From Saprospiraceae bacterium (GTDB lineage Bacteria > Bacteroidota > Bacteroidia > Chitinophagales > Saprospiraceae), in contig JALHQW010000056.1 of the NCBI GenBank assembly GCA_022841745.1, positions 1 through 51,580 of the forward strand: a DNA stretch of 51,580 nucleotides, in the 5' to 3' direction. The position numbers and the translations under genes are program-made. Each line of letters begins with the position of its first letter. The first letter of the stretch is position 1. This document shows, in pieces, positions 520 to 49,270 of this stretch. The notes under the pieces are model-generated. The model made no database searches, was not told where the DNA came from, and saw only the letters and a list, made by a program, of their open reading frames with translations.

Positions 520-803
520 TTGAAAAATACAGTTCCTTGGGGAAGAAATTTAACCGAATATAAAGCCATGTTCTGTCTTAACTATGCAGACGGGTGTAAA
601 TCAAATTGTCGCACCTAGCAGCAAATTTGGGAGCGTCTTAGACCTTCCAGGTTTTAAAAACCTGGAAGGTCTAAGTACAACCTGCGACAATTTGATTTAC
701 ACCCATGCAGACTTGAATAAGCGAATTATTTGTTTTGGAGATGAACCAGCAAGCTTTGATGCAGAAATGACAAAGCTAAATAAGAAGATTGTTTCTATTA
801 CCT
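520..803 (+). pseudogene. Broken SAM-dependent methyltransferase N-terminal fragment
   Basis: Reading from TTG at 520 gives a peptide with VPWGRNLTEYKAMFCL. After an inserted palindromic element, a second frame from about 710 continues with DLNKRIICFGDEPASF and AEMTKLNKKIVSI. In a family of class I SAM-dependent methyltransferases these two stretches are contiguous (pattern PWGR..EY..MF...DL..RIL.CGDGPASFNAE). The insertion plus its 8-bp duplication adds 121 bp, which is not a multiple of three, so the frame is broken. The 3' part is also missing: homology stops near 800, where unrelated sequence begins. The family match is from memory and was not searched. Confidence 0.6.
592..704. mobile_element. 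113-bp nested palindromic element with 8-bp flanking duplication
   Basis: Outer perfect inverted repeats of 22 bp lie at 592-613 and 683-704. Inside them is a second near-perfect palindrome at 637-675, whose central 33 bp (640-672) match the size and shape of three palindromes inside ccoI. The element is flanked by direct copies of ATGCAGAC (584-591 and 705-712), as expected for a target-site duplication. It interrupts the methyltransferase reading frame exactly between those copies. There is no coding capacity, so any movement would need a transposase in trans. Confidence 0.8.
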
Positions 804-21541: not shown

Positions 21542-21574
21542 CGATTTACGATTTACGATTTTGGATTTACGATT
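21542..21574. repeat. ATTTACGATTT ladder repeat at the ccoI 3' end
   Basis: Three near copies of GATTTACGATT run across the safE-ccoI junction and into the ccoI C-terminus. The last copy encodes the end of CcoI, so the repeat has probably replaced or extended the original C-terminal codons and stop. Confidence 0.55.
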
Positions 21575-24093
21575 GGGGCGTCGTCCAGCTTCATCTTTCC
21601 CATGATGGTGGTGCTGGCGAGGCCGAAGCCTACAATCGTCAAGCTGCTCAAGGGCATCAGAATGGCGGCCACCACGGGCGACAACTCACCACGCACGGCG
21701 AACCACAGGCCCACCACATTGTATAGGGCGGCCAGCAGCCATGCAGCATAGACGAGGTGGATGCCTCTCTTCGCAAATTCGAGGTATTGGGGCAATTCGC
21801 CGAATTGTTTGGCATCCAACACGGCGTCGCAGGCTGGGGTGAAATTGTTCACGTCCTCAGCCACTACGATGCCCACATCGGCTTGGCGGAGCGCCCCGGC
21901 ATCGTTCAGGCCGTCGCCGAGCATGAGCACAGTCTCGCCTTCCGACTGCTTTGACTTTATGAAATTGAGCTTGTCGTGAGGGCTTTGGTTGAAGTGGACT
22001 GCCAACTGCCAACTGCCAACTGCCAACTGCTGACTTGGGGCGAAGCGGGGTGCTAGGTACTCCCTTTCACGCTCGTTATCGCCAGACAGCAGGAAGGCCT
22101 TTGTCCAGTTTTTGAAATAATCCACCACAGGCCATGCGGCGCTTCGGTATCGGTTGCGAAGCACCCAGCCGCCTCGTGTTTGGCCGTTTATTTCGATGAA
22201 AACGGTGGCGTCGTTGGACAAGCCTTCCGAAAGTTTTAAACTTTCGGAAGGCTGTCCAACGAAAGCGGCAGAACCGATTCGTAGGTGTTTGCCAGCGATT
22301 TCACCTTCAATGCCCTTTCCCGTACGTTCTTGAAAATCAATGACTTCTGTTGGATTTAGATTTCCGAAATCTTGAAGATTTCGGAAATCTGCCCATGCCA
22401 CCAACTGCCGGCTAATCGGGTGGTTGGAGCGGCTGGCCAGTGTTCTTATCCATCCTTTTTCCTCATTACTTAAAGTCGAACCTTCATATTGCAAATCACT
22501 TCCCCCCGCCTCAGTCAGCGTCCCCGTTTTATCAAAAACAACTGCCGTCACGTTGCGGAGCGCCTCCACCACATTGGTGTTTTTCAGGTAAAGCCCCTTG
22601 CGGGCGAGGATGCGCACCACGTTGCCGAGTGTGAACGGAATGTTCAGCGCAGCGGCGCACGGGCAGGCCACGATGAGCACCGCCGTGAAGGCATTGAAGG
22701 CGATACGGGCATCTTTTGGTAGCCAGTAAACCAGCGTCAGGAACGAAATAACAAGGATGATGATGGTGAAATAGCGGCTCACGGAATTGGCCAAGCGGCT
22801 GGTGCCCATGAGTTTTTCGTTGTGGAAAGCATCCTCGTTCCAAAGGCGGGTGAGGTAGCTTTGGCTGGGCTTTTTGGTGAGCAGCAGCTCAATGGCATCG
22901 CCGAGGTGGCGGGCACCGGCATAGATTTTTGCGCCAGCCTGGTGCTCGGTCGGTTCGGCCTCGCCTGTTACGAAGCTGTAGTCGAGCTTCGCAGTGCCCT
23001 GCTTCAGGATGGCGTCAGCTGGCACGATTTCGCCGTTACGCACGAGGATGCGGTCGCCAGGTTCGAGTTTATTGACAGCAACGCTTTCTTGTTCTGGCTC
23101 AGACTTTCCAAGTCTTTGAGACTTGGAAAGTCTCGTCGCCGCAACGGGAAAATACGACTTATAATCCCTGTCAAACGAAATGCGGTGATAGCTAATCTGC
23201 TGGAACCATTTTCCCACCAAAAGGAAAAAGACGAGGCCGGCGAGGCTGTCCATATAGCCCGCCCCACTGTCGGTGGCAATTTCAAAGAGGCTGCGGAAGT
23301 AGAGCACCACGATACCGAGCGCCAGCGGCACATCAATGCTGAGTTGCCGGGTGCGCAGCGTGGCCCAAGCGGAGGAGATATAGTCACGACCGCTGTAAAA
23401 TGCAACGGGCGTGGCCAGTAGCACATTGAGCCAACCGAACCATTTGCGAAACGCAATCTCGGATTCCTCCAGCCCCAAGTATTCTGGAAAACTGAGCAAC
23501 ATGATATTGCCAAAGGCAAACCCCGCCACGCCAAGTTGGTAGATGAGCCGACGGCTGACGGGCTTGCGGGCCGTACCCTCCAGTGTGCCGAGGTTCAGGT
23601 CGGGCGGGTAGCCGATGCTGTCGAGCAGCTCAGCGACCTTGCGGAGCGAAGTGGCGGCATGGTCGAAAGTTACGGTGGCCTCCCGCTTGAGGAAGTTAAC
23701 CTTGGTGGCCACGATGGCAGGGGAAATGCGGTGCAGGTTTTCGAGCAGCCAGATGCAGGAGGCGCAGTGGATTTGCGGCAGGTGCAGGGTCAGCTTCGTG
23801 ATTTTATCGTTGCTGAACTCCACGACCTTGGCGGCGGCCTCGGAGTCGTCGAGCCAAGCGTACTGCGCCTGCTTCTTGCCCTTCAGGCTGAGGCCCGCAT
23901 TTCTATCAATATTGTAAAACTGTGTGAGGTCGCTGGCGTGGAGGATTTCATAGACGGTCTTGCAGCCTTCGCAGCAGAAGCTTTGCTCGGCAAAAAGGAT
24001 GCGCTCCTCTCGGCACTCGTCGCCGCAGTGGGCGCAGGAGGTCTTGGCCACAGTAGCTGACCTGAGTTCTTCAATGTTGGCGGAGATGGTCAT
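21553..24093 (-). CDS. ccoI: Copper-translocating P1B-type ATPase CcoI/FixI with in-frame repeat insertions
   Basis: This 846-residue inner-membrane ATPase supplies copper for cbb3 oxidase assembly. An N-terminal cysteine cluster (Cys20, 23, 27, 40, 41, 44) precedes an HMA domain with CASC (110-113). Then come the phosphatase motif TGEAEP, the membrane copper site CPC (477-479), the phosphorylation motif DKTGT (Asp521), the HP motif (SNHPIS) and the hinge GDGLNDA (726-732). Four repeat-derived peptides sit in frame in cytosolic loops: RLSKSQRLGKS (about 321-331), DFRNLQDFGNL (about 569-579), GQPSESLKLSEGLSN (about 612-627) and QQLAVGSWQLAV (about 688-699). All catalytic motifs are intact, so it is probably functional. 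A CRP/FNR-like palindrome lies about 95 bp upstream of the start. Confidence 0.92.
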   Translation of the reverse strand: MTISANIEELRSATVAKTSCAHCGDECREERILFAEQSFCCEGCKTVYEILHASDLTQFYNIDRNAGLSLKGKKQAQYAWLDDSEAAAKVVEFSNDKITKLTLHLPQIHCASCIWLLENLHRISPAIVATKVNFLKREATVTFDHAATSLRKVAELLDSIGYPPDLNLGTLEGTARKPVSRRLIYQLGVAGFAFGNIMLLSFPEYLGLEESEIAFRKWFGWLNVLLATPVAFYSGRDYISSAWATLRTRQLSIDVPLALGIVVLYFRSLFEIATDSGAGYMDSLAGLVFFLLVGKWFQQISYHRISFDRDYKSYFPVAATRLSKSQRLGKSEPEQESVAVNKLEPGDRILVRNGEIVPADAILKQGTAKLDYSFVTGEAEPTEHQAGAKIYAGARHLGDAIELLLTKKPSQSYLTRLWNEDAFHNEKLMGTSRLANSVSRYFTIIILVISFLTLVYWLPKDARIAFNAFTAVLIVACPCAAALNIPFTLGNVVRILARKGLYLKNTNVVEALRNVTAVVFDKTGTLTEAGGSDLQYEGSTLSNEEKGWIRTLASRSNHPISRQLVAWADFRNLQDFGNLNPTEVIDFQERTGKGIEGEIAGKHLRIGSAAFVGQPSESLKLSEGLSNDATVFIEINGQTRGGWVLRNRYRSAAWPVVDYFKNWTKAFLLSGDNEREREYLAPRFAPSQQLAVGSWQLAVHFNQSPHDKLNFIKSKQSEGETVLMLGDGLNDAGALRQADVGIVVAEDVNNFTPACDAVLDAKQFGELPQYLEFAKRGIHLVYAAWLLAALYNVVGLWFAVRGELSPVVAAILMPLSSLTIVGFGLASTTIMGKMKLDDAPIVNPKS
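21998..22030. repeat. In-frame 7-bp ladder repeat in ccoI
   Basis: The unit ACTGCCA is repeated four and a half times. Three units equal 21 bp, so the reading frame stays open and yields the periodic peptide QLAVGSW. The same phrase appears in ccoG (25531-25650) and in intergenic copies near 32.9 and 37.0 kb. Confidence 0.85.
22213..22260. repeat. In-frame palindrome in ccoI with 33-bp core at 22221-22253
   Basis: The core is 16-bp perfect arms around a single T (AGCCTTCCGAAAGTTT and its complement), 33 bp long. A further GTTGGACA/GTCCAAC pair extends the stem with one bulged base. It encodes GQPSESLKLSEGLSN in CcoI without breaking the frame. Confidence 0.85.
22358..22390. repeat. In-frame 33-bp palindrome in ccoI
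   Basis: Perfect 15-bp arms (AGATTTCCGAAATCT and AGATTTCGGAAATCT) surround a TGA loop, 33 bp in all. It is read in frame on the minus strand as DFRNLQDFGNL. Confidence 0.85.
23101..23133. repeat. In-frame 33-bp palindrome in ccoI
   Basis: Perfect 15-bp arms (AGACTTTCCAAGTCT and AGACTTGGAAAGTCT) surround a TTG loop. It is read on the minus strand as RLSKSQRLGKS, with the codon phase starting on the first base of the palindrome. Confidence 0.85.
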
Positions 24094-44318: not shown

Positions 44319-44385
44319 CTGTGGTTGGCGGTTGCGACGCTGGCAGGGTTCGGAACCCTGCCAGCGTCGCAACCGCCAACCACAG
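44319..44385. repeat. 67-bp near-perfect palindrome
   Basis: Perfect 33-bp arms (44319-44351 and 44353-44385) surround a single G. It sits in the promoter space between the divergent nitroreductase and 44408 genes. Its centre is GGGTTCGGAACCC, similar to the centre of the right-end palindrome (GTTCCGGAAC). Such a structure would extrude as a cruciform or form a very stable RNA hairpin. Confidence 0.9.
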
Positions 44386-49144: not shown

Positions 49145-49173
49145 TAGCATTTGTAACTAACTAGGTGGTTATG

Positions 49174-49212
49174 GGAGGAGAGAGAAAAAAAAGCATTTTT
49201 TCTCTCTCCTCC
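49174..49212 (+). terminator. Rho-independent terminator of the MFS gene
   Basis: A perfect 17-bp stem (GGAGGAGAGAGAAAAAA, 49174-49190, with 49196-49212) has a 5-base loop. The hairpin itself supplies A and T runs. Confidence 0.85.
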
Positions 49213-49220
49213 TACGTTTT

Positions 49221-49270
49221 GGGGTATTTTTTTGGTAAAAATTTTCAATTTTTACCAAAAAAGCATCCCC
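49221..49270. repeat. AT-rich hairpin family, copy 2
   Basis: The perfect core TTTTTGGTAAAAATT/AATTTTTACCAAAAA around TTC is extended by GGGG/CCCC. It matches the copies at 45438 and 51360 and lies 20 bp before the kinase-RapZ start, so it could also affect that gene's translation. Confidence 0.7.

Follow-up and report, generated by a model that had tools for sequence, protein, structure and literature searches.

In-frame 33-bp palindromes of a Saprospiraceae genome as probable REP-like mobile units linked to a clade of RAYT transposases

The ccoI-like gene and its palindromes

The DNA analyzed here is a stretch of 51,580 nucleotides from a Saprospiraceae bacterium (NCBI GenBank assembly GCA_022841745.1, contig JALHQW010000056.1), in the following called the window, which is contig 56 of a draft genome of 8.43 Mb in 178 contigs (G000). 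It encodes a heavy-metal P1B-ATPase that was assigned on the basis of CopA structures and family searches and for which the name ccoI was kept from the first-pass annotation. Three short palindromes lie within its reading frame, and these palindromes, their relatives in other genes and genomes and the repetitive extragenic palindrome (REP)-associated tyrosine transposases (RAYT = TnpAREP) that may have spread them are the subject of this report. The features of the gene are as follows:

21553..24093, minus strand: ccoI-like heavy-metal P1B-ATPase gene, host of three palindromes; 846 aa, no internal stop
22221..22253, unstranded: ccoI site 1, perfect 33-bp palindrome; arm 16, loop 1; codon phase 1; added peptide PSESLKLSEGL
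22358..22390, unstranded: ccoI site 2, perfect 33-bp palindrome; arm 16, loop 1; codon phase 2; added peptide DFRNLQDFGNL
23101..23133, unstranded: ccoI site 3, perfect 33-bp palindrome; arm 15, loop 3; codon phase 0; added peptide RLSKSQRLGKS

The first-pass annotation had described three palindromes of 33 bp with arms of 15-16 bp and loops of 1-3 bases that lie in different codon phases, leave the frame open and add 11 residues each, and all of this was confirmed. As an insert of 33 bp preserves the frame by its length alone, stop codons alone matter, whatever the codon phase. Around site 1 one base is unpaired and the complementarity then resumes in the flanks. A scan of the window against Rfam gave nothing at the gathering score.

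The structural class and its rule

The rule of the class is A-N13-T/NNN/A-N13-T, i.e., a perfect hairpin whose two 15-nt halves are each 6-3-6 mini-hairpins. In 1.25 Mb of G000, consisting of the window and 60 stretches of 20 kb (the window and two of the stretches were picked because known matches lie inside), 52 rule-conforming sites were found versus 0 in one Markov-2 shuffled control, which by extrapolation suggests about 300-350 sites per genome. The same 1.25 Mb contains 80 perfect palindromes with arms of at least 13 bp and loops of at most 3 bases, 19 of them with a length of 33 bp and 10 with a length of 35 bp, versus 0 in one Markov-3 shuffle, and a comparison with shuffled sequence, proposed in the first-pass annotation, thus places the palindromes far above expectation. 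The palindromes of the examined loci fall into 25 families, of which 14 include members of 33 or 35 bp. In eight of these 14 each 15-nt half can pair as 6-3-6 (at least 5/6 pairs, G-T allowed), compared to 0.64 families on average and at most 4 in 2000 shuffled trials.

Across 28 representatives the columns A1, T15, A19 and T33 are invariant. In the outer stem 99.8% of cells are paired with 132 double-change cells (33.8 in shuffles), and in the inner 6-3-6 stems 89.9% are paired with 61 double-change cells (19.8 in shuffles; 0/500 shuffles as high), the inner-stem figures being biased upward as the representatives were hand-picked and most had an inner stem already visible. For both stems the covariation lies far above shuffles and slid registers. 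The claim of an interspersed palindrome family that is conserved in structure and length and inserted in frame was borne out. Its TTCC...GGAA core marks related families (AGACYTTCC, ATTTCCGAA, CTTTCCGAA) and not the whole class, whose constant is the 15+3+15 double-hairpin layout with A1, T15, A19 and T33. The elements start mostly with AGAC (141/234 copies, many of which were fetched by an AGAC pattern). The 33-mers leave on average 4.57 of the six frames open, compared to 3.32 for shuffled arms and 3.96 for a structure-preserving shuffle (P 0.0006). This poverty in stop codons is weak evidence since the 28 representatives were mostly drawn from RAYT loci, in many cases from within a frame, where openness is required.

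Two further palindromes of the window are related to the class:

637..675, unstranded: perfect 39-bp palindrome with a 33-bp core at 640-672, nested in the 592-704 inverted-repeat element
44319..44385, unstranded: perfect 67-bp palindrome with a 33-bp core at 44336-44368 of the GCTGGCAGGGTT family and 17 bp of locus-specific complementary flank

The first of these had been taken as a fourth copy of exactly 33 bp (640-672), and this does not hold, as these 33 bp are the core of the longer palindrome. The 592-704 element has long inverted-repeat ends that enclose the 39-bp palindrome, and the latter recurs with similar flanks at C9, C19 and C123. The 44319-44385 palindrome has G as its first base and falls outside the A1 rule.

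Other palindromes were observed besides. Paired unlike A/T-rich palindromes (GGAGAGAGAAAAAA... and TTTTTGG..AAAAATTTTC...) lie at 49172-49262 of the window and the pair recurs at L012 4485-4576, L018 19353-19446 and L268 7847-7943. Perfect palindromes with a common central CGAATTCG (TCGAATTCGA in some) and unrelated arms were seen at L269 8753, L283 8494, L294 10737 and 10970 and L298 17911; these are perhaps terminators or a library artefact. Palindromes of 50-90 bp with a GGGGTTATCAAACCCC core are found at L011 2036-2115, L019 4244-4333 and L024 6946-6995, the outer ends differing in two of them.

Copies inside genes and comparison with relatives

Long frames contain copies less often than random placement would give: a position inside a frame of 150 codons or more, with 25 or more codons to either side, was found for 33/80 distinct copies with inner stems, versus 2302/3000 random positions. 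Some of these frames may be no genes, and each tandem array was counted several times. Clear in-frame hosts are ccoI, pheT and an IcmF-like fused mutase with B12-binding, MeaB and mutase domains. Read from the sequence without family search, further in-frame hosts are a photolyase, a HypF-like protein, an aminotransferase with several tandem copies and type I restriction subunits.

The inserts differ among close relatives. Those of G000 in pheT and in the IcmF-like mutase are absent at both loops in 6/6 genus members. The pheT loop contains CTCATCC-like repeats in five of the six and not in G001, and the mutase loop contains a 33-mer of another family in G001, AAATCCG-type repeats in G012 and neither in the other four. 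For CcoI, the alignment comprised 29 orthologues of other genomes, including partial ones. Site 1 is present in two of them, decayed in G006 and longer and locus-extended in G011, and the arms changed together between G000 and G011. Site 2 is likewise present in two, as an identical 33-mer in G008 and decayed in G006, and it is absent in G011, while its loop carries GTTGGCA- or GGGAATT-type repeats in G001, G004 and G012. The copies of G000 and G008 may have been inherited and then lost elsewhere or may have been inserted twice. The site 3 block was found in 0/29 orthologues, and the corresponding loop of G011 holds a 33-bp palindrome of another family (AGATTTGAC...). Hence, the 11-residue blocks are not conserved among the 29 distant orthologues, a check that had been proposed along with the original claim. 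The repeated filling of the same loops by unrelated inserts, i.e., palindrome families and heptad arrays, is read as tolerance by selection, and survival of the copies in loops would accordingly reflect selection.

The pattern AGNNNTTCC-N15-GGAANNNCT has 33 matches in G000, 31 of which are palindromic or nearly so by eye, and 5 in G011, 2 in G008, one of which is palindromic, and a single non-palindromic one in G006. In G006 the reversed pattern used as control gave 2 matches, exceeding the pattern itself, and the completeness of G006 and G011 is 80% and 85%, respectively.

Two heptad arrays are found in the window, (ACTGCCA)n at 21998-22030 and (CGATTTA)n at 21542-21574. The former lies in frame in a ccoI loop that is occupied by other short repeats in relatives. 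TAACTGA repeats were described from Beggiatoaceae in passages of an earlier paper (PMC4679880).

Link to a clade of RAYT transposases

Genes matching PF01797 were tried as movers and rejected, as palindromes were found near 0/50 Y1/PF01797 loci in ten named genomes; in this test the relevant clade escaped, as its members score weakly or not at all with the Pfam model used. Among the PF01797 loci of G000, one of nine (L076) has a copy nearby. The relevant clade surfaced through a palindrome copy that lies in frame inside a RAYT-like gene of G000 (C53:25323-26039), with more copies on both sides of the gene. Relatives of this RAYT were found in 12/13 chosen genomes and in 71/395 genomes of the phylum of the window (E<=1e-15), and 33-bp palindromes lie recurrently beside and inside their genes. 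A rule-conforming palindrome is present at 21/30 RAYT loci from the chosen genomes, several of which overlap one gene, and at 25/29 clade loci drawn over the phylum. In a tree of 67 RAYT/Y1 proteins, whose deeper joins are unsafe owing to long branches outside the clade, a clade of 42 with support 100/99 has palindrome-bearing loci in 36 rows, versus 2/25 outside, so that 36/38 palindrome-bearing rows fall in this one clade. The first-pass annotation had left the spreading mechanism as unknown and had named a RAYT as something to look for; the former is now replaced by a specific candidate, a RAYT clade with palindromes beside and often inside its own gene.

A palindrome lies inside the gene in 26/40 RAYT frames, 9-89 residues after HUH, and 26/27 of these copies share one codon phase; 43 loci were considered for this count, of which L363, L385 and L386 were dropped as they have no readable frame, and only copies 9-89 residues after HUH were included. 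The peptides encoded by the internal copies resemble DLPGFKNLEGL. In this set, which was not filtered on the inner stem, 24/27 copies have at least 5/6 inner pairs. The RAYTs of L135 and L207 also have internal copies, the one of L207 reading RLAKFLKLGKS, a peptide of another phase. The G000 C2 RAYT has four copies further downstream, by eye after the Y motif, which are outside the internal count.

The clade RAYTs possess HUH and Y motifs. By a simple pattern the W[QE] motif was found in 1/42 clade rows (L327, by eye elsewhere in the protein) versus 12/25 others. According to passages of PMC6006769 this motif is linked to GTAG recognition, and by a column match made by the author the clade seems to be without it. 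Searching the PDB with the sequence of one clade RAYT did not retrieve any relevant relative (E<=1), and an AlphaFold model of the L135 RAYT built with three sequences had a pLDDT of 38, was useless and was left unused.

Two loci with other enzymes were noted in passing: at L069 (C41) an IS200-like Y1 transposase gene is bordered on both sides by arrays of long tandem repeats, which translate as CVPTGRGYWVLARLLLP, and at L074 and L075 (C92) two near-identical RAYT genes of another type are found with GGTTCAAGTC hairpins at the loci.

The matching of palindrome families to RAYTs was analyzed in 23 genomes for two families. Members of the AGACCTGACAGG family were found in G090 (14), G066 (11), G001 (3), G157, G278 and G364 (1 each) and in none of the other 17, and this family lies in or by the RAYT in G090, G066, G157 and G278. 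The AACCCTCCAAGGG family is present in G278 (15), G239 (7), G364, G254 and G157 (1 each), is absent from the other 18 and lies in or by the RAYT in G278, G239, G364 and G254. Dispersal together with a matching RAYT is thus seen in G090, G066, G278 and G239. Furthermore, the palindrome by the G011 RAYT (L324) has arms identical to those of the site 1 copy in ccoI of G011.

Distribution across phyla

A scan of named bacterial and archaeal genomes with AGACYTTCCARGT-N7-ACYTGGAARGTCT gave at least 116 stretches, and the phyla were drawn from the 80 matches listed. By record titles these comprise Bacteroidota, Gammaproteobacteria, Calditrichota, Chloroflexi and Chlorobiota, i.e., five phyla, where mis-binned contigs may explain some of the taxon names. 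Among the matches listed, the Gammaproteobacteria include Methylobacter, Venteria, Halobeggiatoa, Thiotrichales and others, named strains include Runella limosa DSM 17973, Dyadobacter psychrotolerans and Methylobacter tundripaludum SV96, and one identical 33-mer accounts for 35/80 matched sites, both strands counted. In phage and plasmid collections, a blastn search with one variant of the common 33-mer and the low-complexity filter on gave no match.

Flanks of the copies

For the analysis of flanks, copies with common 8-bp flanks were dropped, leaving 234 copies (468 flanks) for motifs and duplications and 204 for arm extension. A target duplication of at least 5 bp was found in 0/234 copies, and matches between the two flanks were close to expectation for 2 bp (17, 14.6 expected) and numbered 2 for 4 bp (0.9 expected). 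The GTRG foot was found at 0/468 flanks (3.7 expected), and the apparent lack of the W[QE] motif in the clade would fit its absence. CGTC was found at 2/468 flanks (1.8 expected). A search for a target motif gave one clear signal, G at -1 being avoided (43/468). Most 33-bp elements end in CT. Other RAYTs are described in passages of PMC8266576 to cleave at CT and in one case at CA, with GTAG contributing to the choice; the CT end of the present elements is a candidate site of cleavage. The flank data favor an HUH enzyme acting by single-strand transfer over a DDE transposase. Flank complementarity was considered as a general feature of the copies and rejected, as there is none in 162/204 copies.

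Proposed mechanism and alternative explanations

We consider it probable, at roughly 0.8, that the palindromes make up one structural class of REP-like, non-autonomous mobile units and are spread by the described clade of Y1/HUH RAYTs. The 33-nt unit would fold into two 15-nt halves, each with a 6-bp stem and a 3-nt loop and closed by an A-T pair, that are separated by a 3-nt spacer, and it could also fold into one hairpin of 15/16 bp. The RAYT would recognize the folded single strand, in the lagging-strand template or other exposed single-stranded DNA, would cut at the ends of the unit and would insert it into a second single strand almost irrespective of the sequence there, apart from an avoidance of G directly outside the unit. 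Pasting into a single strand would leave no long target-site duplication. As 33 is a multiple of three and stop codons are few in many families, an insertion into a gene would add 11 residues and could survive in a tolerant loop.

Several observations weigh against this interpretation or lack an explanation. No movement was observed, and mobility is what we infer. A palindrome of this kind is missing from six of the 42 clade rows and present for two RAYTs that fall outside the clade (L076 and L121), in a tree whose loci differ in length and for which L121 (outside the clade), L135 and L207 (both inside) were fetched for holding a palindrome. As to the identity of the enzymes, REP_Tyr_transpos NF047646 is the sole NCBIfam match of the four RAYTs scanned, which speaks for the assignment, but it reaches 45-51 bits at a cut-off of 80, and for Pfam Y1_Tnp L313 scores 23.6 (cut-off 23) and L314 gives no match. 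The single AGACCTGACAGG copies of G157 and G278 are the ones inside the RAYT, and likewise the single AACCCTCCAAGGG copies of G364 and G254; copies of a family without a matching RAYT were seen in G001 (3), G364 (1) and G157 (1), and the G278 RAYT holds one family within its gene and a second one next to it. That the same loops exchange palindromes for heptad arrays is unexplained. In DNA folding of two 33-mers the large hairpin reached -14.2 and -14.8 kcal/mol and the 15-nt half -2.1 and -2.9 kcal/mol; with the large hairpin being by far the stabler fold as free DNA, the reason for keeping the inner stems is unclear. Finally, five of the 204 copies (window 44319-44385, L274, L324, L040 and L381), three of them from one family, have arms that are 9-19 bp longer and extend into the locus-specific flank, for which plain cut-and-paste is insufficient. 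Fold-back synthesis at the hairpin is a possible origin of these extensions.

The extended arms also speak for an alternative in which the palindromes arise and stay perfect in place, imperfect inverted repeats being perfected and sometimes lengthened by template switching or fold-back synthesis in the course of replication with no transposition, and the joint change of both arms at ccoI site 1 between G000 and G011 points in the same direction. Such processes may act on existing copies, but by themselves they provide no dispersal, and the same 33-mer at unrelated loci and in different phyla among the matches listed, the recurrent length of 33 nt and the tight link to one RAYT clade make them an improbable sole origin. 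Still less probable is that the palindromes are very small miniature inverted-repeat transposable elements (MITEs) that carry terminal inverted repeats and are mobilized by a DDE transposase. Perfect inverted repeats, dispersed copies and the position of copy 640-672 within the MITE-like 592-704 element would be expected for MITEs, and 3-bp flank matches exceed expectation (9 vs 3.7), which also counts against transfer by the RAYTs; the flank matches of 2, 4 and at least 5 bp given above and the RAYT link speak against a DDE transposase.

About as unlikely is an explanation in which the hairpins are kept for a host function, such as mRNA stability, attenuation or a protein-binding site, and are dispersed by selection, with the RAYT as a domesticated servant. 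REPs have such roles in E. coli according to passages of PMC6006769, and the in-frame copies inside most of the RAYT frames could be understood in this way, but the inserts differ among close relatives, the loops in question are elsewhere occupied by other families or by heptad arrays, and the scarcity of copies in long frames is as for a tolerated insert. An artefact of assembly or library preparation would be conceivable for a 178-contig draft such as G000, but it is hardly credible, given that ccoI sites 1 and 2 recur in separately assembled genomes and that the same sequences are found in records of named strains such as the three listed above.

If the palindromes are indeed spread by the RAYT clade, they would turn from an oddity into a testable system in which families partly match the enzymes of one clade and the substrate follows a precise 33-nt rule. 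With a P-type ATPase, PheT and an IcmF-like mutase, they would offer a natural case of conserved proteins to which mobile DNA contributes short peptides while the frame stays intact. They would also be substrates for asking on what basis a RAYT that lacks the usual guide motif picks its cutting site. A further proposal goes beyond this and is put forward tentatively, as one that we regard as rather doubtful: the palindromes might constitute a distinct class of HUH-transposase substrates, a 33-nt double mini-hairpin read by its shape and not by a GTRG foot, which has a length fixed at a multiple of three, is codon-compatible and poor in stop codons and adds loop peptides across several phyla, the RAYT keeping its own substrate in frame.

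Comparison with known systems

REPs inside open frames, Rickettsia included, were reported before (Di Nocera et al., 2013; PMC3733652), and in tnpAREP subclass 2.4, found in Cyanobacteria, Bacteroidetes and other phyla, passages of Quentin et al. (2018; PMC6006769) describe REP copies inside the gene, in frame and generally between HuH and Y. With in-frame REPs in genes and in tnpAREP published in 2013 and 2018, the principle is known. The present system is similar to TnpAREP/RAYT subclass 2.4 in its Bacteroidetes hosts, the NH[IFV]H motif, an own REP family flanking the genes, in-frame internal REPs and a long HuH-Y distance. In contrast, the REPs of subclass 2.4 bear GT[AG]G at their foot, or else a "double foot" with the motif at both ends, as far as described in these passages, whereas the 33-nt double mini-hairpins have it at 0/468 flanks, and the W and Q residues that are well conserved there are not seen in the present clade (column match by the author). 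Subclass 2.6, as described in passages of the same paper, is similar in that it is found mostly in Bacteroidetes, has structures without GT[AG]G and an unconserved guide region, its median HuH-Y distance being 82 aa. However, its structures are called weaker, whereas the present hairpins are strong and near-perfect, and gene insertions are unmentioned for subclass 2.6 in the passages compared.

The intragenic GTAG/CGTC REPs described in passages of PMC3733652 resemble the present palindromes as short palindromes inside the frames of many genes, some genes being hit twice, but they are GTAG- or CGTC-tagged and the present elements are untagged. In that paper the Rickettsia palindromic elements (RPE) RPE-4 and RPE-6 are equated with CGTC repeats and RPE-1 is described as longer. 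The likeness to RPEs that had been drawn in the first-pass annotation is supported, by description only, as both are in-gene, in-frame palindromes that add residues. We know of no RAYT that acts as mover of RPEs. The 33-nt double-hairpin rule without GTRG was not found in the literature searched, though the supplements of PMC6006769 could contain it. Measured against these systems, the palindromes are REP-like and linked to a RAYT, but they are an atypical, frame-neutral variant lacking GTRG.

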